Positions 1,993-29,335 of a DNA stretch of 29,335 nt are shown piece by piece. The position numbers and the translations under genes were made by a program. Source of the stretch: a virus; IMG/VR virus record IMGVR_UViG_3300033144_002764, positions 1 through 29,335 of that record, one strand, 5' to 3'. Each line of letters starts with the position of its first letter. Within the stretch, counting starts at the first letter, position 1. The notes below the pieces were generated by a model. That model saw nothing but the letters and a program-made list of their open reading frames with translations. It did no database searches and was not told the origin of the DNA.

Positions 1993-4900
1993 ATGAAAGA
2001 CATTCTTGACATCAAAGGGCTGCTCATGCACTCCTTCTTCAGATGTAAAGGCTCCGGCTCCCCGTACAGGGATGCTAACGGAGATCAAGTAGCCTCAGCC
2101 GAGGCAGCATTCACCACCTTCCTAGACACTTACCTGCTACCTATACTGGACAACGCCGAGCCTATCGACGTGATCGCTGTGTGGGAGGGAGGTAACATTC
2201 GTCGTCGAGAAATCTATAGCGGGTACAAGGAGAAAAGAGCGGCTAGGGAGACTGACCCTGTAGTCACAGAGCAGTTGGACAAACTGTACAATCTCACCAA
2301 AAGTTTTATGCTAGGTATCGGGGCTACCAACGCGGTCACTGACACTGTAGAGGCTGACGACACGATTGCATTCATCGCACTCAACCTGCAAGAACCCTGT
2401 GCGGTATACACCATTGACGCTGATCTCATGCAGTTGCATGACACGGAAGCCGAGTACCCTGTTAATGTTTTCTACCGGGGCGAGTTTGCTGAGGACTTTG
2501 AACTATCAGTTCCCCCTGAGTTGATTGCTATAAACAAAGCGCTGCTGGGTGACAAGTCCGACGAGTACATCGGTGTCAAGGGCTTTGGTGAGAAATCGTG
2601 GGATCATCTGGTAGCCAACTTCGGGCTGGACGGTATGGCTGAGTTAGCCTTGATTGCAGCGGGTCGCAAGAAGAGGGAGCTAGGCGATATAGTAGAAGAA
2701 TCCAATGATCCCAAGCTGCGGATGATCCTCGAAAACTTCAGCACATTCTGCAAGATGTACCAACTGGCTATCCTGCATCCTGAGTGGTGCGAGTCCACGT
2801 ACAAGCGCAAGCTGATCCGTACGCAGTGGCATCGACGCCTGCCCAATCAGGAGCGCGTAGAAACCGTGCTGGAAATCACCGGCAACGAAGACCTGATGGA
2901 CAGGATCGAGCGCTACATGCCCAAGCTATGGTTGGTGTCGTCCAGTAACGTAGACGAACTGTTGTACGAGAGCGACATCCTAGACGATCTGAACCATCGG
3001 CCTGTAGCGTTTGACTACGAGACCTACGATCTAAACAAGTTCCCCAACTTCAAACTGAACAACCCTGATTATGTGGACACGCTCAGCGCCATGATAGCCG
3101 GGGTATCCTTCACGTGGGGGGTGAACTACAGCAAGACGATCTACATCCCGTTCCAGCATCTGGACAAAGAGAACAACTGCGCAATGCAGGTCATGATCGA
3201 CATGTTCAATGAGATTGAGAATTTCGTAGTCCACAACAGCTCGTTTGAAGAAGTAGTATCTCGTATGAGCTTACCTCCTGAAATTGCCGCACAGTTATTC
3301 GGGGTCACTGACACCATGATCACCTCTGTCTACGTGGATGAAAATGAACGCAAGTCTCTGAAGCATCGGGCCTTGCATCATTTCAACTACACGCAGACTA
3401 CGTACAAGGAGTTGATGGATCAGTACGGGGTGAGTGGCATGGACGAGTTGACCTCCGATCAGGTATGTGAATATGGCGCGGACGACAGTATCGTGACCGC
3501 TCACCTGTTTCATCTGCACGACATGATTATGCAGTTAGAACACACTCGTGACTTCTGCTACGAGAATGAGTTTATTACAGCCTCCGTGTTCAACAGCAGT
3601 TTTATTGAAGGGTGCCGTATCGATAGTGAGCAACTTGACAGGATGCGTGTTCGTGACGGTAAGATTCGCAAGGTCTCCGAGGCTAAGCTGCGGGGGATAT
3701 TAGCGGATGGATGCACCGAGGAGGATATGGAGGCCACGGAGCTGTACATGGCGGAAATACAGGACTTCGAAATCGCCAATATGAAAGCCAACGACAAAAC
3801 GGAGGAGCAGATATCGGACAAGTTGCAAGGGATTCGTGAACGCTTTCTGGCTAACACCAAGTACGAGCCGTACGTGGTGGAGGTAGTTCCCTACGCCTTT
3901 ATACCTACGGTGAATAAGTTCAAGGATATCTTCCTAAAACTAAACCCGGACTTAACCGAGGAGGGGGATTTTCTTCAAACTGTGGCACCCACCAAGATCA
4001 GCGAGGAGTTCAAGGAAAAGCAGGGTCGATGGCCTGTGGAAGTGACTTTGCTAATGGAACTGGTCTTGAAGGCAGCGCATCAGTTCAAGGCGCGTTCTGG
4101 ACCTGAGTATGACGAGCTGAGCGACTACGTAACGACTGTGATGGCCGACAAGTCCAAGACCAAAGCCTCCGGATTCGAAATGAATTTAGACAGCCCGGTT
4201 CAAACGGCTTACCTGCTGTACGGAATGCTGGCCTTGCCTATACGACACTACACTGACCCCGCTATCGGTTCGGCTAGGCAGGAGTTAGGCTTCTCCGGCC
4301 CACCGGCTACCAACAAGAAGGCCGTAGAGATAGCTATGGCCGAGGACGCTTTCGAGGGGACGCCAGAACGGGAGGCACTAGAACTGGTAAAGAAAATCAA
4401 GGAAATCGATACGAAATTCAAGTTTTACTACCGACCATACCCCAACTGGATACACCCCAACACAGGTAACATCCATCCTTCCATACTGAGCTGCGCCACC
4501 ACAACCCGAAGACCTACTGGAAGCTCACCTAACAGCCTGCAAGTGAAGAAAGGGGATATCCGGTCCATCTACCTGCCGGTCAGGGACGATCATGTTCTCA
4601 TTGCCCCTGATTTTCACGGGCAGGAGCTGCGCATACTGGCCAGTGAGTCCATGGATGAAGTCTTGCTCGATGCCTACCTAGGTGACGTGCTGAAGGACGT
4701 GCACGGCCTTACAGCGTCCGCTATCCTGCCCAAATTAGCTCAGGCGCTGAAACCTGCCCTGTTTAAGAAGATACTATACGAGGAGGGCAAGCGATCCCAG
4801 TCTTACGAGCAATTCGTGGAGTGGAGAAAATCGGACGAGTTCAAAGAGTTCGCGAACTGGGTGCGGGACAAACGAGCCAAGCCCTGTAACTTTCTTGTGA

Positions 4901-5496
4901 ACTACGAGGGAGGGGCATCGACTTTATCGACAGATATGCTGGTGCCTAAGGAGGATGCTCAGCAGTTTATCAATGGTATGTTCGATCTGTATCCCGGCGT
5001 TCCGAAGTTTCAGAAACAGTCTCACAAACTGGCGGCTGAGTATGGGTACGTAGCTACTGCCTTTGGCAACCGTCGACACATGACCCCTGACATCGTGCAC
5101 AGAAATGACATGCTACGAATGCGCATGGAACGCCAAGCCTCCAACTCACGTATACAAGGCTGTGCGGCTGACATACTGAAGGTGGTAGTCCGAGAGGCTC
5201 ACGAGACCGGCCTGCTGTCCGACACCGGGACTGTAATTATTGCCCCTGTGTACGACGAGCTGGTTAACTCTGTCCCGATTATTCACGCTGCGGAGTTCTG
5301 CCCTAGGTTGCAGAAAATAATGGACTTGACTCCCCCCGGTCACGCCGTGCCGATGATGTCTGAATTCTCTGTTGGGTTCGACTGGTACAACATGATCGAG
5401 ATCGGTACGGACACCAGTGAGAAAGTGGTTGGCGAAGCCATCGTGGAAGCCAAGGCTAAACGCGCAGAATTTATTGCGAAGGAGAAAACATATTGA
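1993..5496 (+). CDS. Family A DNA polymerase with 5'-nuclease, 3'-5' exonuclease and polymerase domains (1167 aa)
   Basis: This is a Pol I-like three-domain replicase. The 5'-nuclease (FEN) domain covers about residues 1-300: Asp6, the arch region RRREIYSGYKEKR, EADD at 120-123, TIDADL at 140-145, and the helix-hairpin-helix GDKSDEYIGVKGFGEK from 186. The proofreading domain spans about 325-520: Exo I DYE (341-343), Exo II HNSSFE (414-419), Exo III Y494-D498. The polymerase domain has TRRPTGSSPNSLQ, motif A DFHGQELR (873-880), motif B with K963, F967 and Y971, and motif C YDE (1087-1089). F967 occupies the Phe762 position of E. coli Pol I. Oddities: Glu65 and Glu419 stand where Asp is usual, Tyr1087 replaces the motif C His, and Glu972 replaces the motif B Gly. 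GAGGA at 1981-1985 fixes the start. It is longer than Pol I (928 aa), with extra sequence in the thumb/linker region (about 590-730). Phage polymerases usually leave the FEN domain on a separate gene. Confidence 0.95.
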   Translation: MKDILDIKGLLMHSFFRCKGSGSPYRDANGDQVASAEAAFTTFLDTYLLPILDNAEPIDVIAVWEGGNIRRREIYSGYKEKRAARETDPVVTEQLDKLYNLTKSFMLGIGATNAVTDTVEADDTIAFIALNLQEPCAVYTIDADLMQLHDTEAEYPVNVFYRGEFAEDFELSVPPELIAINKALLGDKSDEYIGVKGFGEKSWDHLVANFGLDGMAELALIAAGRKKRELGDIVEESNDPKLRMILENFSTFCKMYQLAILHPEWCESTYKRKLIRTQWHRRLPNQERVETVLEITGNEDLMDRIERYMPKLWLVSSSNVDELLYESDILDDLNHRPVAFDYETYDLNKFPNFKLNNPDYVDTLSAMIAGVSFTWGVNYSKTIYIPFQHLDKENNCAMQVMIDMFNEIENFVVHNSSFEEVVSRMSLPPEIAAQLFGVTDTMITSVYVDENERKSLKHRALHHFNYTQTTYKELMDQYGVSGMDELTSDQVCEYGADDSIVTAHLFHLHDMIMQLEHTRDFCYENEFITASVFNSSFIEGCRIDSEQLDRMRVRDGKIRKVSEAKLRGILADGCTEEDMEATELYMAEIQDFEIANMKANDKTEEQISDKLQGIRERFLANTKYEPYVVEVVPYAFIPTVNKFKDIFLKLNPDLTEEGDFLQTVAPTKISEEFKEKQGRWPVEVTLLMELVLKAAHQFKARSGPEYDELSDYVTTVMADKSKTKASGFEMNLDSPVQTAYLLYGMLALPIRHYTDPAIGSARQELGFSGPPATNKKAVEIAMAEDAFEGTPEREALELVKKIKEIDTKFKFYYRPYPNWIHPNTGNIHPSILSCATTTRRPTGSSPNSLQVKKGDIRSIYLPVRDDHVLIAPDFHGQELRILASESMDEVLLDAYLGDVLKDVHGLTASAILPKLAQALKPALFKKILYEEGKRSQSYEQFVEWRKSDEFKEFANWVRDKRAKPCNFLVNYEGGASTLSTDMLVPKEDAQQFINGMFDLYPGVPKFQKQSHKLAAEYGYVATAFGNRRHMTPDIVHRNDMLRMRMERQASNSRIQGCAADILKVVVREAHETGLLSDTGTVIIAPVYDELVNSVPIIHAAEFCPRLQKIMDLTPPGHAVPMMSEFSVGFDWYNMIEIGTDTSEKVVGEAIVEAKAKRAEFIAKEKTY

Positions 5497-5711
5497 GTAA
5501 GTATTTTGCAGTAGGGCAGTACGACACCAGCGGGGACTACGTTCCCTACATCGAGCACATACGAGTGTACAAGGCAGGGGATAGAATGGTGACAGAGGAC
5601 GGAATTAAGTTTGCGGTCAAAGATGAATACGAGGACTGGGTGTCCCCGACAATGCTAGAGCTTGGTTTGAAATCTGTGATCAAGATCATGGAGCACTCTG
5701 ACATTGGTTAG
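5493..5711 (+). CDS. Small protein of unknown function (72 aa)
   Basis: The TTG start at 5493 overlaps the polymerase stop (TTGA) and has GGAG at 5481-5484, 8 bases upstream. The next in-frame ATG would remove almost half the protein. The product is acidic and aromatic-rich, with VGQYDTSGDYVPYIEHIRVYKAGD near the N-terminus in two segments (about 7-16 and 17-30). It has no membrane segment and no motif I recognise. Translational coupling to the polymerase suggests a replication-associated role, which is inference from position only. Confidence 0.65.
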   Translation: MSKYFAVGQYDTSGDYVPYIEHIRVYKAGDRMVTEDGIKFAVKDEYEDWVSPTMLELGLKSVIKIMEHSDIG

Positions 5712-6054
5712 GCGAGGCCAGCCCCCTTACTTGGAATGCTCAAGTAGGGGTGACCGGAGGTTTAGCGCTTTCTTCGCAATGGTGGACGGAAAATCAATAG
5801 AGAGGAGATACCAAGAGTCCAAAAGATTTGCTGACGGTTCACCTGCACTATCGTGGAAAGATGCACTAGGCAGGAAACCGTCGAATACCACGGAAGTGAG
5901 GCAGCTCTACTCCCAACTGTGGGATCAGTATATTCAAGAGCACCCCGAGCTGCTAGCTGTGTTGAAAGAGGCCACAGGCTTGAGCGATGTGTTCGGCCAG
6001 CCTGTTCACGTTTGCCAAGCTATAGAACTATGGAGAATTCGAAATGAAAATTGA
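5704..6054 (+). CDS. Conserved-looking phage protein with CSSRGDRRFSAF signature (about 116 aa)
   Basis: The frame runs from a TTG at 5704, overlapping the previous stop by 8 bases, to 6054. A second TTG at 5731 is also possible, as the recognisable part begins at Cys12. Seen: CSSRGDRRFSAF at 12-23, then YQESKRFADG and SWKDALGRKP, then LYSQLWDQYIQEHPELLAVL and GLSDVFGQPVHVCQAIELWR. From memory, phage and plasmid proteins with a SSRGDxRFSAF opening and an ALGRKP-like motif are widespread but uncharacterised. I cannot assign an enzyme activity. It ends 11 bases inside the next helicase gene. A hairpin covers the start region (5723-5750). Confidence 0.6.
   Translation: MVRRGQPPYLECSSRGDRRFSAFFAMVDGKSIERRYQESKRFADGSPALSWKDALGRKPSNTTEVRQLYSQLWDQYIQEHPELLAVLKEATGLSDVFGQPVHVCQAIELWRIRNEN
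5723..5750 (+). promoter_or_regulatory. Hairpin over the start region of the CSSRGD-family gene
   Basis: CCCC (5723-5726) plus TACTTG (5728-5733) pair with CAAGTA (5741-5746) plus GGGG (5747-5750), leaving one bulged T and a 7-base loop. In RNA this 10-bp stem lies 19-47 bases after the first possible start codon and contains the alternative TTG start at 5731. It could choose between the two starts or limit translation. Confidence 0.4.
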
Positions 6055-7363
6055 AAAATTGAGTGACGATCAACAACTAGGTTTAGCTACGATTGTTGAC
6101 TTCATCAAAGGCCCCCAGCGGACGCTGGTGTTAAAGGGTATCGCTGGCACTGGCAAGTCCACACTAATCCAAATGATTGCCAGCTATTTCCACGGTGATA
6201 AATATTTCTGCTTTACTGCCCCCACCAACAAAGCTACCAAGGTTCTGCGGGACATGAGCAGAGAGCAGCAAGCTGGTGTCAGCAGCATTTGTACTATTCA
6301 CAGTCTGCTGGGTCTGGTGCTTACACCGGAGGGGGCTATCAAAACCCTGAAGACTCGCGGAGAGCGGGATGAAGTAGCCTATGCAGATGTGATAGTGATC
6401 GACGAAGGCTCCATGATCGGCCTGGAAATGAGTCAGCGCATTGAGGCTGTTCTGAACACCTACCCACAACTGAAGGTAATTTACATGGGTGACCCTATGC
6501 AGTTGCCTCCGATTGGTGAAGAGTCTTCCCCTGTATTTCACACTTCTCAGGTAATTGTAGAGTTGATCGAGATAGTCAGGCAAGCCAAAGACAATCCGAT
6601 CATCCAGCTATGTTCCGACATCCGAGATTCTATTGTATCCGGAAAGCGAAGCTTTAATCTCGAAACTGTAAAGACCCCCGAAGGTAACGGAATTTTCTGC
6701 TTACCTCGCAAGATGTTTATTGACTGGAGCCGTAAGGCTTACTCTTCAGACGCCTACAAAGACGATCCGAATTCCTTCAAGACCATCGCGTGGCGCAACG
6801 TGACCGTGGACGACTCCAACGATCTGATACGGCGTGCCCTGTATCCGGCTAATGCGGACGGCAGTATGGAGGCTTTCATGCCCGACGAGCGGGTCGTAGT
6901 AGCTGCCCCGGTATCTGATCAATGGGGCAATGAAATTCTGGCCCACACCGACTCCGAAGGCATAGTGAAGGACAAGCAGTTGCTGCCGGTGCACCCTTGG
7001 GTCAAGGCTCACGGAGAATTCAAGGTCTACAAGCTTATGGTTGATTTCTACGGTCTAGGCAAGGTGCCCTGCTTTGCGCTGCATCCGGACTCAGAACGGG
7101 ACTACAAGAAGACCCTCTCTAAGCTCTCTAAACAGGCCCACAAGACGAGTTCGATGTGGGGGTCCTTCTGGGCGTTCAAGGAGTCGTTCCATGACGTACG
7201 CTACGCTCACGCTGTGACATCCCATCGTTCGCAGGGGTCCACATATGAGACCGTGTTTGTGAAGCCGGGGGATATCCTGCTAAACCGTAACAGGGTTGAA
7301 TCTTTCAAGTCCCTGTATGTGTCCTGCTCAAGGGCCAGCAAGAATCTGATTATTTTAAACTGA
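6044..7363 (+). CDS. SF1B DNA helicase, Dda/RecD-like (439 aa)
   Basis: This is an ATP-driven 5'-3' DNA helicase of the Dda/RecD2/Pif1 type. Seen: Q-motif region DDQQ (8-11), Walker A GIAGTGKST (32-40), motif Ia TAPTNKAT (58-65), Walker B VIVIDEGSMI with D120-E121, motif III MGDPMQLPPIGE, and near the C-terminus SHRSQGSTYETVFV (motif V) and YVSCSRASKNL (motif VI). The length matches T4 Dda (439 aa). Dda-type helicases load at forks, displace bound proteins and help start replication and recombination. The ATG at 6044 overlaps the upstream frame by 11 bases and has GGAG just upstream. It is followed after 9 bases by the nuclease gene. Confidence 0.93.
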   Translation: MKIEKLSDDQQLGLATIVDFIKGPQRTLVLKGIAGTGKSTLIQMIASYFHGDKYFCFTAPTNKATKVLRDMSREQQAGVSSICTIHSLLGLVLTPEGAIKTLKTRGERDEVAYADVIVIDEGSMIGLEMSQRIEAVLNTYPQLKVIYMGDPMQLPPIGEESSPVFHTSQVIVELIEIVRQAKDNPIIQLCSDIRDSIVSGKRSFNLETVKTPEGNGIFCLPRKMFIDWSRKAYSSDAYKDDPNSFKTIAWRNVTVDDSNDLIRRALYPANADGSMEAFMPDERVVVAAPVSDQWGNEILAHTDSEGIVKDKQLLPVHPWVKAHGEFKVYKLMVDFYGLGKVPCFALHPDSERDYKKTLSKLSKQAHKTSSMWGSFWAFKESFHDVRYAHAVTSHRSQGSTYETVFVKPGDILLNRNRVESFKSLYVSCSRASKNLIILN

Positions 7364-7372
7364 GGAGGAGAG

Positions 7373-7885
7373 ATGCATAGCAAAGATATAAGACACGAAC
7401 ATCTTACCAAGGCGTGCCAGTTGAAATCTGCTGCTCTTGGCAAATGGTGGGAGCACGAGATCGAGCTGGTCTTCCGGGACATGGAGGAGTTGTACAAGTT
7501 CCACTCCGTGCGCCTGTACGATACAACCACAGCCGGGGCGTTTATGCCTTCCACAGACGGAGACTACATTTGCATGAGTAACGGCAGTGGAATTTTGGTG
7601 GAGGCTAAGTGCTCAGCCAAGCACAGCACGCTAATAGCCGGAGCCTCCAGCCTGATCCCGAAGAAACAGGTCTTGGCTCACCGTCTATGGGCACGCGCCA
7701 AAGGGCGAAGCTTATTTCTGTTCGCCTCAGTAGGTGCTAACAGGTTCGAAGTCTGGGGCGGGTTGTACGTGGCTGGCTGCCGGGTATCCGGCGAGAAGCT
7801 GGTGGAGGCGCAGGGATTGCTGTACTCAAGCCCCCTTACTGACGGGGAATTTTGGCGCAACATGAGAGGAGCATTTACATGCTGA
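7373..7885 (+). CDS. PD-(D/E)XK nuclease, RecU/Holliday junction resolvase-like (170 aa)
   Basis: The active-site pattern is visible: GKWWEHEIE (23-31) supplies the first helix acidic residue, STDGDYI (60-66) the Asp, and ILVEAKCS (74-81) the E-x-K core with E77 and K79, followed by a helix with a lysine pair. This order fits RecU/Hjc-like resolvases and related phage nucleases that cut branched DNA using magnesium. Length is in the family range (150-200). GAGGAGGAG sits directly upstream of the ATG. The last 7 bases overlap the SbcD-like gene, so the products are probably made together. A Cas4-like or restriction-type PD-(D/E)XK enzyme is the alternative, but no cysteine cluster for an iron-sulfur site is seen. 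Confidence 0.75.
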   Translation: MHSKDIRHEHLTKACQLKSAALGKWWEHEIELVFRDMEELYKFHSVRLYDTTTAGAFMPSTDGDYICMSNGSGILVEAKCSAKHSTLIAGASSLIPKKQVLAHRLWARAKGRSLFLFASVGANRFEVWGGLYVAGCRVSGEKLVEAQGLLYSSPLTDGEFWRNMRGAFTC

Positions 7886-8955
7886 TATTTTTGACCGATC
7901 CCCATATCGGGGTTAATCGCAAGGCGAACACTACACTGGCCTCAAGGCGGCTGTTGTACGAGCGAACAATCAAGACACCTGTGGAAGGGCTGGTTAACCT
8001 CAGGGAATCCCAGCTTAACGCAGTGATTTGTCTGGGTGATTTGTTCGATACCTACAGCAACAAGGAACAGACGATATTGGATGCTGCTGCGGTGTGTAGT
8101 GGTATTGACTTCTGCCTCGCAGGCAACCACGACTCTATTAACGATTCCACCAAGGAAAGCTCACTGGGATTGATAGATGAAATGTGCGCTACCCGGATAA
8201 TACGAGCGCCGGTAGGCAAGTCTTTATGGTACACCGAGCAGTTCAAGCTGGCCGAGAATGACGTGCGCGTTTACATGGTGCCTCACCACTCTGCTCAGGA
8301 ACTGTTTGAAGCTTCACTAATCGAGTGCGCTGATGACGCTGGAGACGAGGCTATCAACATCGTGCTGGTGCATTGCAACTACGGGCTGTCGGAGGGTATG
8401 CTCAACGACACCACGCTCAATCTCACGGAGGAAGACGTGGAGTATCTGCTGGACAACGGCATAGATTATGTCTTATTCGGTCACGACCATGGGAGCAGAG
8501 AACCTGAGCACTGGGAGGGTAGGGTGCGTATCCTTGGCAACACCCAGCCCACCAGCTTTTCAGACATAGGGGACAAGTACATCACCACGTTTGACGGCTT
8601 GGAATTCACGAAGCACCTGATCTGGGACAGCCACAAACGGTACGTAGAGCTGGACGTGGCCAACGACTGGCCTGAGCTGTCTTCAGAGGTAGAGTTTGTG
8701 AATGTAGCAGGGGAAGTGCAGCCTGCCAATGCTATCTACGTAGGCAAGATGATACAAGCACTGTGGGACGCCTATCCAAATATGCTAGCCATACGCAACT
8801 CAGTAAAGATCAAGGAGATCGAGCAAGGGCTGGAAGTCAAGCCGGGGGAGATGTCTACCGCTACCATTTTCGAACTGGTGGACGCACACCTGAAAGACTC
8901 CGACCTGTATCCATTGTGGCAGAAAATGACAGAGGGCTTACAACAAGAATCTTAG
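7879..8955 (+). CDS. sbcD-like: SbcD/Mre11-like exonuclease subunit (358 aa)
   Basis: This is a calcineurin-like metallophosphoesterase with all metal-binding motifs: DPH (7-9), GDLFD (53-57), GNHD (82-85), H165 in VHCNYG, and GHDH (201-204). Paired with the SbcC/Rad50-like protein encoded next, it should form a manganese-dependent nuclease that opens hairpins and resects DNA ends, like T4 gp47 or T5 D12. I place the start at the ATG at 7879, which follows GAGAGGA and puts the DxH motif at residues 7-9 as in the family. An upstream in-frame ATG at 7852 lies inside the nuclease gene and would add nine residues. A 23-bp palindrome overlaps its stop codon. Confidence 0.93.
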   Translation: MLIFLTDPHIGVNRKANTTLASRRLLYERTIKTPVEGLVNLRESQLNAVICLGDLFDTYSNKEQTILDAAAVCSGIDFCLAGNHDSINDSTKESSLGLIDEMCATRIIRAPVGKSLWYTEQFKLAENDVRVYMVPHHSAQELFEASLIECADDAGDEAINIVLVHCNYGLSEGMLNDTTLNLTEEDVEYLLDNGIDYVLFGHDHGSREPEHWEGRVRILGNTQPTSFSDIGDKYITTFDGLEFTKHLIWDSHKRYVELDVANDWPELSSEVEFVNVAGEVQPANAIYVGKMIQALWDAYPNMLAIRNSVKIKEIEQGLEVKPGEMSTATIFELVDAHLKDSDLYPLWQKMTEGLQQES

Positions 8956-8970
8956 GAAATTCCTAAGATT
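8948..8970. repeat. Near-perfect 23-bp palindrome between the SbcD-like and SbcC-like genes
   Basis: Bases 8948-8958 are the exact reverse complement of 8960-8970, with a single central base. It overlaps the end of the SbcD-like gene (stop at 8953-8955) and ends 16 bases before the SbcC-like start codon. There is no T-run after it, so it is a poor terminator. As RNA it forms a 9-bp stem with a 5-base loop that could stall a transcript, protect it or control SbcC translation. As DNA it could bind a dimeric regulator. Confidence 0.55.
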
Positions 8971-8986
8971 TAAACCGGGAACCGAA

Positions 8987-11152
8987 ATGCTTACATCAAT
9001 CTATTTAGAAAATTTCAAGAAGCACAAAAAGCTGAGAGTGGAATTCACTCCCGGCGTGAACGTAATACTGGGACAGAACTACGCGGGTAAGACCACGATA
9101 CTTGAGGCCATCGCCTACGCCTTCCGTGGGCCTCTGGCTGTGGAAGGTGGCAACAGCGTAATTCAACATGATGACGGGGGCAAAGTCAAAGTCGTGTTGA
9201 ATTTCGAGGCCGATGGTTGCGACTGGATTTTAGTGCGCAAGCAGGACACGGCGTCACTGGAGTCCAACGATGGCCGCATGGCTAACGGCACCACGCCTGT
9301 GAATGGGTTGCTGCGAGACCTGATGGGATTCGACGCCAAGCTGTTCAACGTATTGAAGTACAGCGAACAGGGTGATACTCAGCTCCTCCTGAAAGAGGGT
9401 GAGACCAAGGTCAACCAGATGCTGGAAAGGTTGAGCGGCATCGACCTTGTGGACGTGATACTGAACAACCTGAAAACCTACAAGACAGTAGCCAGTGGCA
9501 TTATGGACGGCTTGGAAACTGTGACTGGTGAGCAGATAGGAAATCAGGAGATTCGAACCAACAATGTAGAGATCAAGGCAGCGCAGTTATTGAAAGCTAC
9601 CGGAACTGCTAGTCTGGGCTACGACAGTGCGTTGAAGTCCCGAGACCGGACTAAAGAGACCTTGTCTACCCTGCGTGAAGCTCGTAACGATCAGATAAAA
9701 ATAATGCAGGATCAGGCACGCATTCAAAGCAGCATAGACGACAAGACTGCGCAGCTAGCCGAGTATGAAACTGAGCAGGAAGAATTTGAAGACTTAACCG
9801 ACGAGACAGTGGAGAGCAAGGAGGTTGAAGTAACTCAGGCCGAAACCCGATTCGGAGAATACTCCAGCCTGTCGCATGACTGGAATGCTAAATCTAGAGC
9901 CGTGAATACCTGCCAAACCGCGATCACGAAAGCTGAAGAAGAGATTGAGGAGCTTCAGAGCCGCAAGGAAGCCGCTGAGCAAAGTTTGAAGTCGGCCATG
10001 ACTATAGCGGAACTCAGCAAACGAGAGGATACTTACAGAACTCTTGCCAGACGTGAGGACAAGCTGATAGACGCCATGGAAAACGGTGTGTGTGAAACCT
10101 GCCATAGACCTTTCGAAGGCGCTGAGGATGCTGAGGTATTACAGACGGAACTGGATCAAGTACGGGAATCCTTGGACCCAGCTAACGCCGCTTATCGAGA
10201 GGGGCAAAAGGATATGGAGCGTACTAGTGATTTAAATTCAGAAGTGACTCGTATTGAAGCGTACATAGATTCGCACACCACCGCTCTTAACGAATCCCAT
10301 AACCAGAAGTACGAGGCAGAGCGTGCCGTGGCAGATGTGAACCAAAAGTTGAAAGACCTGAAAAAAGGACCTAGCATTCTACCCGAGGGCGAGATAGAGA
10401 ATCTTCAAAACGAATTAACCGACATGCTCAAGCGCAATGTCAAGAGGTTGCACCTGATCGAGATGGTAGCCAAGACCAGCAACTCCTTGGGAATGAAGCA
10501 ACAGAGCTTCGCTGATCTTCCAGTGTTCGAACCCATTGACGACGAGGATTACGAGCACGCTCAAGCGCATCTGGATGAAGCGGAGTCTAATTTCCGAATT
10601 GCCAGTAACGATTACGCCACGTTGCAGGGCGATCTTAAGCTGGCAGAGTCCACCGCTGCGCATGAACTGGCTCGTCTGAAGGATATGAAACGTGTTATAG
10701 AAGACAGCTCCAAGTACACAGCTCAGATTGACAAAGCTGACAGGCTGTCCAAGTTTCTGCGCAAAAACAGGACTACCCTGCTGTCCAACATCTGGGCCAC
10801 AGTGTTAGCTCAGGCTTCCTACGTGATAGGAATGATCACTGGCGGGGCTGTAGACAGCGTCCTGCGCATTGAAGGAATAGGGCTAGCCTATCGAGAGGGT
10901 GGCCGAGATAAGCCCATAGCGGCTGCCTCAGGCTGTCAGAAGACGGTAATCGGGGTGGCGATACGCTCAGCGATAGCAAAACTCTTCGAAGGTCACCTGA
11001 AATTCATGTTACTGGACGAAATATCCAGTGACATGGACTCAGAGCACGTCTCAGCGACGATGGCGATACTGGAGCAGCTAAACGACCAGATCATTTTAAT
11101 CACCCACAGCGATGCTGAGCTGCGTGACAGCCACAACATTATTGAGTTGTAA
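8987..11152 (+). CDS. sbcC-like: SbcC/Rad50-like SMC-type ATPase (721 aa)
   Basis: The N-terminus MLTSIYLENFKKH is typical of the family. Walker A is GQNYAGKTT (29-37). A long coiled coil (about 180-600) is interrupted near its middle by a zinc-hook motif CETC (369-372) followed by HRPF. The ABC signature is SGCQK (648-652), Walker B FMLLDE (D677, E678), then a SSDMD D-loop and an ITHSD H-loop. It tethers and remodels DNA ends as the partner of the upstream SbcD-like nuclease, like T4 gp46 or T5 D13. At 721 residues it is shorter than E. coli SbcC (1048) but longer than T4 gp46 (560). Oddities are Tyr32 where Walker A normally has Gly, and Cys650 in place of the second Gly of SGGQ. The stop overlaps the next start (TAATG). 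Confidence 0.93.
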   Translation: MLTSIYLENFKKHKKLRVEFTPGVNVILGQNYAGKTTILEAIAYAFRGPLAVEGGNSVIQHDDGGKVKVVLNFEADGCDWILVRKQDTASLESNDGRMANGTTPVNGLLRDLMGFDAKLFNVLKYSEQGDTQLLLKEGETKVNQMLERLSGIDLVDVILNNLKTYKTVASGIMDGLETVTGEQIGNQEIRTNNVEIKAAQLLKATGTASLGYDSALKSRDRTKETLSTLREARNDQIKIMQDQARIQSSIDDKTAQLAEYETEQEEFEDLTDETVESKEVEVTQAETRFGEYSSLSHDWNAKSRAVNTCQTAITKAEEEIEELQSRKEAAEQSLKSAMTIAELSKREDTYRTLARREDKLIDAMENGVCETCHRPFEGAEDAEVLQTELDQVRESLDPANAAYREGQKDMERTSDLNSEVTRIEAYIDSHTTALNESHNQKYEAERAVADVNQKLKDLKKGPSILPEGEIENLQNELTDMLKRNVKRLHLIEMVAKTSNSLGMKQQSFADLPVFEPIDDEDYEHAQAHLDEAESNFRIASNDYATLQGDLKLAESTAAHELARLKDMKRVIEDSSKYTAQIDKADRLSKFLRKNRTTLLSNIWATVLAQASYVIGMITGGAVDSVLRIEGIGLAYREGGRDKPIAAASGCQKTVIGVAIRSAIAKLFEGHLKFMLLDEISSDMDSEHVSATMAILEQLNDQIILITHSDAELRDSHNIIEL

Positions 11153-27470: not shown

Positions 27471-28427
27471 TTATTTGTATGTTAATGCCAGTGTTCGAAG
27501 CCTCTCAATAATCAGAGGGGTAAGTCTAGAAAACAACTTGCTTATAAAAGGCCGCTTAGCTTCGTTAATCGCCAAAAGCTGTAATAGGTCAGGACCCGCC
27601 TGACTATCTATACCCAGATCACCTACTATTTTCAGTGTGTCTCTCTGCGTGGCTACCGCAGTAAACAGCAAATCTGCGAAATCCTTACCTAACGGGTTGG
27701 ACGCAAAGATAGGTATAGTTTTCGGCATCAAAAGACGCCCTTTGAATCCACCGACCTTGATAACCTTACCCCCTCGGATGCTAGTGTGGCCTCTCCGAGC
27801 TGACCATTTAACCGTGTTCGCGTCGAAACTGAACCCGGTACGCGATCCTGTTTTTGTGATCGTATGCCTTAATGGAGTGTGAAATATGTTACCGGCCCCT
27901 CCTGCAACTAGGCTATGAGTCATCTCATGCAGGGGTCTACCCGGAGGTTTGCTGGCCGTGCTTCTATCCCCTCTTTCGTACCAAAAACGTTTGGTATGTT
28001 TGGTATGGGCTGTACGAGAGCCTTTCTTATACATACGCCTTATCGATTTCCAATACGATCTGGATAAATCAGGCCATGGGTCTGTACGAAAACTTGTAAA
28101 ACCCGCGTCTATGGCTTTAGACCCGCCTCTACCCGCCCCTTTTACTTTAGGTAACCTGCTGGGATCGCTCAACAACCTGTGCAAAACTAGAAAGCCATGC
28201 CCCAGATTCCTATTCGCAGCGTTTGTAAACTGGGACAGGACTAGGTTAGTTTCTTTTGTCAGGGCTGGCGTGCCCTTTACCGCATTAAATATTAAATCCG
28301 ACACGTTACTTCTAGGGCTGGTCATTCGATCTGTGATGCGTTTGATCAAGACTCCGTTTTTTGAAAATAGCTCTTTCGGGACAACGAAAATCCTGCCAGC
28401 ATCCAGATGTAGCGTAATTTGGGCCAC
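27471..28427 (-). CDS. Neck or tail-completion protein candidate (318 aa)
   Basis: It starts with GTG directly after the preceding stop (TAAGTG). The protein is basic, with a Lys/Arg/His-rich centre (MYKKGSRTAHTKHTKRFWY, about 131-149), then PGRPLHEMTHSLVAGG and long helices at the C-terminus. The sequence order (basic segment, a PL-x-T/S-x-L-like element, beta-rich middle) and the position before the major tail protein suggest an analogue of lambda gpZ or HK97 gp10 neck/tail-completion proteins. It is longer than those (about 110-200). I do not recognise a family with confidence. The HEMTH sequence fits the zincin HExxH pattern but may be coincidental. Confidence 0.5.
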   Translation of the reverse strand: MAQITLHLDAGRIFVVPKELFSKNGVLIKRITDRMTSPRSNVSDLIFNAVKGTPALTKETNLVLSQFTNAANRNLGHGFLVLHRLLSDPSRLPKVKGAGRGGSKAIDAGFTSFRTDPWPDLSRSYWKSIRRMYKKGSRTAHTKHTKRFWYERGDRSTASKPPGRPLHEMTHSLVAGGAGNIFHTPLRHTITKTGSRTGFSFDANTVKWSARRGHTSIRGGKVIKVGGFKGRLLMPKTIPIFASNPLGKDFADLLFTAVATQRDTLKIVGDLGIDSQAGPDLLQLLAINEAKRPFISKLFSRLTPLIIERLRTLALTYK

Positions 28428-28886
28428 TTAAATTGCCCTTAAGCACTTGGCGGATATAGTCAACATCCGCACCCCTGACTCCCGATCCATGACTTGGGGG
28501 TCTACCCCGCTGTCGATAAACAGTATAGAACCCTCGGGGGCTGTCGGGTCAGGCACAGATACCGTGCTGTAATCTAGTATGTCTACCCACGTGCCTCTCT
28601 TGAAGGTGGCTTTGATCTGGGACACCAGCCCCAGCAACTCGTAGTTAGATGGGTCGGAGGTGGTCTTGACCCCTACTGCAAACGCCAGCGAGTACATAGG
28701 GTCTTGCGGGTCTTCATCCATGTTCAGGAAACGCCACACCAGAACTGAAGTTTCTCCTGTCAGCTTGGTCGCAGCATTCACTGTGTCATCCGCGTCCACG
28801 AAATCTATACTCAGGGTGTCAGCTAAATCTTTGGTCATTTTGTCCAGAGTGGATTTAGCCTCTAGAATAAAAGTGGCTTCGCTCAT
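28428..28886 (-). CDS. Tail terminator-like protein (152 aa)
   Basis: The protein has a helical N-terminus and then a strand pattern with YSLAFAVGVKTTSDPSNYEL, a following helix with LVSQIKATFKRG, and a last strand ESGVRMLTISAKCL. This mixture of a 'v-st-dps' strand, helix, and final R-x-hydrophobic strand resembles tail terminators of the lambda gpU type that cap the tail tube and dock on the head. Size and position (between head closure and major tail protein genes) fit. AGGAG lies 9 bases before the ATG. Its start would form an ATGA overlap with the preceding gene if the 23-bp duplication in that gene were removed. Confidence 0.6.
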   Translation of the reverse strand: MSEATFILEAKSTLDKMTKDLADTLSIDFVDADDTVNAATKLTGETSVLVWRFLNMDEDPQDPMYSLAFAVGVKTTSDPSNYELLGLVSQIKATFKRGTWVDILDYSTVSVPDPTAPEGSILFIDSGVDPQVMDRESGVRMLTISAKCLRAI

Positions 28887-28932
28887 GCAGCGGCACTCCT
28901 TTTGTTCATCCTGACTCCCTTAAGACTGATCA

Positions 28933-29325
28933 TCAGAAAGACTTCCAGAATATCATAGACGATGTTGTTGACCCTGAGTTCATGATCGGTGGTGATCGGT
29001 ATTCATGATCGGTGGTGATCGGTACAGAGGCAGGCAGCACACCTATCATGCCTGAGTAAATCACCCCGTCGAATTCTCCTGAGTTGGCCGAGGTTAGCTT
29101 ATCGAAATCCATGGGGAAGGTGTCTATCACCGTGGGGGTATTGCCCATAGATGTTCCGGAAGCCGCCGTCCCGGTTACCAAACTCAACATCTCTCCGGTA
29201 TAGTCAGCACGTTGAATCAGATAAATGTTGTTGTATATCTCGTCCCTCGATATGTCCACGTTCTTTGCAGTGATCAAGTACGTGTTACCTGCGGGGTCCC
29301 TGAGAGCTTCGTAAGTGGAGGGCAA
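28933..29325 (-). pseudogene. Probable head-closure/stopper protein, C-terminus shifted by a 23-bp duplication
   Basis: The TTG at 29325 has GGAG 6 bases upstream, so the gene may be complete at its 5' end, although the frame stays open for the few bases left in the window. The present frame gives 130 residues, ending in a low-sense Ser/Pro-rich tail after residue 108. Deleting one copy of the tandem 23-bp unit (28979-29024) gives a 139-residue protein ending DHELRVNNIVYDILEVF, then an LKGVRMNK tail. This resembles the last strands of head-tail stopper proteins (a D-x-hydrophobic strand, then 'Y-D-I-x-E-V'). The restored frame stops in an ATGA overlap with the next gene. The function assignment rests on position and this C-terminal pattern. 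The frame lesion is directly visible. Confidence 0.6.
28979..29024. repeat. Tandem duplication of a 23-bp unit inside a coding region
   Basis: Units 28979-29001 and 29002-29024 are identical over 23 bases. Each unit also contains the 7-base word GATCGGT twice, 10 bases apart, a likely seed for slippage. Because 23 is not a multiple of three, the second unit changes the reading frame of the minus-strand gene. Confidence 0.95.
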
Positions 29326-29335
29326 CCCTTTCTCC

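Follow-up and report, generated by a model that had tools for sequence, protein, structure and literature searches.

The question raised by this locus is whether a perfect tandem duplication that throws a phage structural gene out of frame belongs to the phage or arose when its genome was assembled. The DNA analyzed here, which we call the window, comprises all 29,335 bases of one IMG/VR virus record. Two identical 23-bp units stand side by side on its plus strand at positions 28979-29001 (sequence TTCATGATCGGTGGTGATCGGTA) and 29002-29024, as an earlier sequence-only reading of the window had described. This is the only perfect tandem duplication of at least 15 bp in the 29,335-nt window, and a 23-bp tandem duplication appears in none of 50 shuffled windows. 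Either copy could be the extra one; the two are indistinguishable. The run of matches in the array equals its period exactly, without flanking microhomology, a pattern that chance alone often gives. The DNA of the array shows no hairpin tendency (fold z +1.6), and hairpin-driven slippage is rejected on this ground. Slippage between internal TGATCGGT copies is likewise rejected, as it would alter the length by 10 bp and not by 23.

The duplication lies in a minus-strand reading frame (28933-29335) whose 5' end is beyond the window. As assembled, this frame is truncated: the ORF at 29325-28933 encodes 130 aa from a TTG, terminates at 28933, and its last residues are out of frame. With a single unit, the frame is open as far as a stop at 28883-28885. 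The 3' end displaced by the array, on the minus strand at 28883-28978 (LRVNNIVYDILEVFLMISLKGVRMNKRSAAA followed by the stop), is homologous to the C-terminal ends of all four intact relatives, and its stop overlaps the ATG of the next gene (28884-28886) in a minus-strand ATGA at 28883-28886. The proposal that removal of one unit yields an open frame ending in this overlap is thus upheld, but the 139 residues assigned to the product are not the full gene, whose 5' part is found on another contig; the intact relatives are 196-200 aa long. Codon usage in the displaced tail is the best of the three frames, yet below that of typical genes, and for this reason we rely on homology.

Intact relatives of the gene are found at L018:7077-7676 (199 aa, the closest), L020:3522-4115, L003:4158-4748 and L023:1501-2100. 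The repeat is absent in all four, and each has a full C-terminus. Aligned with the DNA of L018, the second unit of the window is an exact 23-nt insertion, with no other gap in the aligned 3' part of the gene; the duplication breaks the frame of the minus-strand head-tail gene. The 31 residues that follow the array in the one-unit frame align without gaps to the end of the L018 protein with a score of 60, reached by 0 of 20,000 shuffles. The scores are 36 against L020 (30 of 20,000 shuffles) and 31 against L003 (74 of 20,000); none of the other frames of the same bases comes near the score of the one-unit frame, and the tail as assembled gives no alignment to the C-termini of the relatives. It had been set beforehand that the claim should fall if the restored C-terminus aligned with no homologue; the alignment to the L018 end lets it survive. 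The stop/start overlap is also conserved, as ATGA in L018, L020 and L023 and as TGATG in L003. Judged by these alignments, the one-copy form of the gene is the conserved form. The additional 23 bp are a derived insertion; through the frameshift that they cause, the protein fold described below loses its last beta-strands. Searches for the 23-bp unit gave no other IMG/VR contig and no record of a relative. Annotated phages yielded no match to the window fragment or to L003, either by DNA or by tblastn search, and a match to Nocardioides in genome contigs is short and weak.

The sequence-only reading guessed that the gene encodes a head-tail stopper. No Pfam or PHROG profile matches the window fragment or L003, and the joined reading has no match in Pfam. 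The structure was modelled on the relative L018 and not on the window copy. An AlphaFold2 model from five rows has a pLDDT of 74 and a pTM of 0.69; an earlier prediction from three rows was poor (pLDDT 40) and was left out of the fold search. Foldseek places SPP1 gp16 first (E 4e-4), and so does VIA-align (7z4w, Z 11.6, 100 residues, rmsd 2.7), over residues 73-199 of the model. Lower-ranked matches are mostly neck, connector and stopper proteins of tailed phages. Among viral models, the top matches include an uncharacterized 179-aa protein of Caulobacter phage Seuss, encoded at the syntenic position. SPP1 gp16 and other siphovirus and myovirus stoppers (PDB 7z4w, 2kca, 8k37, 6tba) share the fold of the C-terminal ~100 residues of the L018 model, and the gp16-type proteins are encoded at the same position, after an adaptor-like gene in the head-tail module. 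They differ in being 100-125 residues long, whereas members of the present family have about 200 with an extra N-terminal part and lack a Pfam or PHROG profile match; the window copy, moreover, is frame-broken. What the duplication throws out of frame corresponds to the last three strands of the L018 model (residues 168-171, 174-184 and 187-198).

The gene order of the region agrees with the fold. On the minus strand, positions 29222-29335 of the window (114 bases) recur without a mismatch at the end of IMG/VR contig 3300033144_004451 (L002/L009). This contig is 15,584 bp long; it has genes for terminase, portal, protease, capsid and an adaptor-like protein as well as the beginning of the stopper gene, and it ends about 200 bp short of the array, after the overlap. 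Read as one, the two contigs show a siphovirus head-tail module in this order: capsid, a small ORF, an adaptor-like gene (82% to JWF-type g1), the stopper gene, a g4-like gene (93%), a g3-like gene (weak) and the tail tube. The stopper gene thus sits between the adaptor and the terminator/tail-tube genes. The gene that follows it (28428-28886, minus strand, 152 aa) is intact, and its profile matches the gene that immediately precedes the tail tube in phages of the JWF/Seuss type, which suggests that it occupies the tail-terminator position; a search of IMG/VR with patterns built from this gene turned up no relative. Syntenic capsid, adaptor, stopper-position and tail-tube genes are present in siphoviruses of about 80 kb (Caulobacter phage Seuss, Achromobacter phage JWF, Xylophilus phage Lumi and Acinetobacter phage EAb13), where the stopper is undetectable by BLAST and the 179-aa Seuss protein is linked to ours by its fold match to the L018 model. 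The two genes after the stopper (27471-28886) seem to be reversed relative to JWF- and Seuss-type phages, with the terminator-like gene before the g3-like one, for which the match is weak. Fold and gene order together support the assignment of the window gene, on the strength of the L018 model, as a probable head-tail stopper of SPP1 gp16 fold in an uncultivated siphovirus, and the original guess holds. In SPP1, gp16 seals the portal channel once packaging is complete and figures in a list of proteins that the phage requires to multiply (PMC6316719); by analogy in fold and position, the window gene may close the channel in the same way and be needed for virions.

Two other features of these contigs are recorded here. 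Between the structural genes and the amidase of contig 3300033144_004451 lies a gene (L009:2632-3792) for a full-length glycosyl hydrolase family 10 protein of xylanase type (PF00331, E 3.6e-73) with a signal-like N-terminus, which was not found in four related contigs. The window itself holds a replication and repair block at 1993-11152, with a family A DNA polymerase that has a 5'-3' exonuclease domain, a RecD/PIF1-like helicase and an SbcD/SbcC-like pair.

The position of the array bears on where the second copy came from. As the window is a complete record, the array lies 311-357 bp from the contig end, and the stopper gene is cut by that end. On the overlapping contig the N-terminal part of the same gene, at L009:15379-15420 (L002:5908-5949), is a net 19 bp short relative to L018, about 190 bp before the contig end. 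At the other end of the window, an SNF2-type helicase gene (1-939) is also frame-broken, being 62 bp short relative to L026 at about position 925, some 0.93 kb from that end; both losses are measured against diverged relatives (about 50% protein identity), so the lengths in the true genome are estimates. The conserved C-terminal residues of the helicase follow in a different frame (923-1015), preceded, as it happens, by an AGGAGGT and an ATG (region 712-1015), and the stretch missing from the window is present in the helicases of many other phages. Relatives match the frames of the window over 26.8 kb, and only the stopper and helicase genes change frame; where relatives match, the interior of the window has no frame break. 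Each of the three breaks (+23, -62 and -19) is at most about 1 kb away from the end of a contig. For a position drawn at random, the probability of lying no farther than 357 bp from a window end is 0.024 and that of lying no farther than 936 bp is 0.064; on the other contig, a distance of at most 195 bp from an end has a probability of 0.025. These distances were picked post hoc, and the values serve as a guide and not as a test. Comparable errors were described by Chen et al. 2020 (PMC7111523), who report local assembly errors, assembly that halts at uncertain points, perfect overlaps of scaffold ends and wrong protein-coding sequences as a result. The present case likewise combines frame-breaking indels near contig ends with a perfect overlap to a second contig end, although the 114-bp overlap corresponds to no obvious k-mer length.

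The clustering of breaks at contig ends points to an assembly error, or to a variant located at an assembly breakpoint. It is because this break and two others cluster in this way that we favor assembly error over the other origins: the second copy would be an error made near the end of a metagenome contig, and the phage itself would carry one copy and an intact stopper gene. With a probability of roughly 60%, then, we infer a stopper gene with a derived 23-bp insertion whose second copy most likely comes from assembly, in a phage that most likely has the one-copy form. There are also considerations against an assembly error. A k-mer assembler with k above 23 normally needs reads that span the junction, and perfect in-frame tandem duplications occur in two contigs of the phage group, one of 30 bp in an Ala/Glu-rich 125-aa ORF adjoining the capsid gene (L009:14537-14597) and one of 66 bp in a long repeat protein (L010:19328-19464), so duplications do arise there.

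These in-frame duplications lend some credit to a recent tandem-duplication mutation, which would be real in the phage that was sampled, or among a minority of its population; genomes of this kind would lack a working stopper and would persist only in a defective form or by complementation in mixed infections. A duplication without a single mismatch, next to a single copy in the relatives, fits a recent event, and a real indel polymorphism could halt assembly at this point and produce the same clustering at contig ends. Against such a mutation stand the independent breaks in the stopper gene on L002 and in the helicase gene, both near contig ends and with none in the interior; the copies, moreover, are not flanked by microhomology, even if chance often has this result. 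We consider it the chief rival to assembly error, possible but less likely as the origin of the second copy.

Alternatively, the truncated product may be functional, or ribosomal frameshifting may restore the tail, which directly follows the array, one frame away, and is open to its stop. Yet the tail is kept in one frame in all four relatives and supplies strands of the fold (L018 model, residues 168-198), inspection by eye reveals no slippery heptamer at the array, and the N-terminal part of the gene is likewise out of frame on L002. Both versions are very unlikely.

Besides assembly error and recent mutation, the sequence-only reading raised a third origin, a contingency switch in which slippage between the two 23-bp units toggles head-tail joining off and on. 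Slippage can in principle delete one unit of a 23-bp tandem repeat. The array, however, has two units only, it is present in none of the four intact relatives, and its copy number does not vary among them. The gene is of a kind that every virion needs, and a halt in virion completion is without evident use; should the gene be essential, as is recorded for gp16 of SPP1 (PMC6316719), the off-variants would yield no infectious particles. A literature search for phase-variable structural genes of phages gave nothing relevant. We regard the switch as extremely improbable, and hardly any weight attaches to its corollary, a real and reversible two-unit form in which slippage-inactivated stopper genes are maintained in part of a phage population. 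Among the three origins proposed, assembly error is thus preferred on account of the contig-end clustering, a real mutation is possible, and the switch is unsupported.

On the favored reading, the case illustrates how a single small error that breaks the frame close to the end of a contig conceals an essential-looking phage gene from annotation and can mimic a biological switch. Were the duplication real and reversible after all, it would represent an unexpected on/off control of virion assembly. The analysis also identifies, in a group of uncultivated siphoviruses, a putative family of stopper proteins without a match in Pfam or PHROG.
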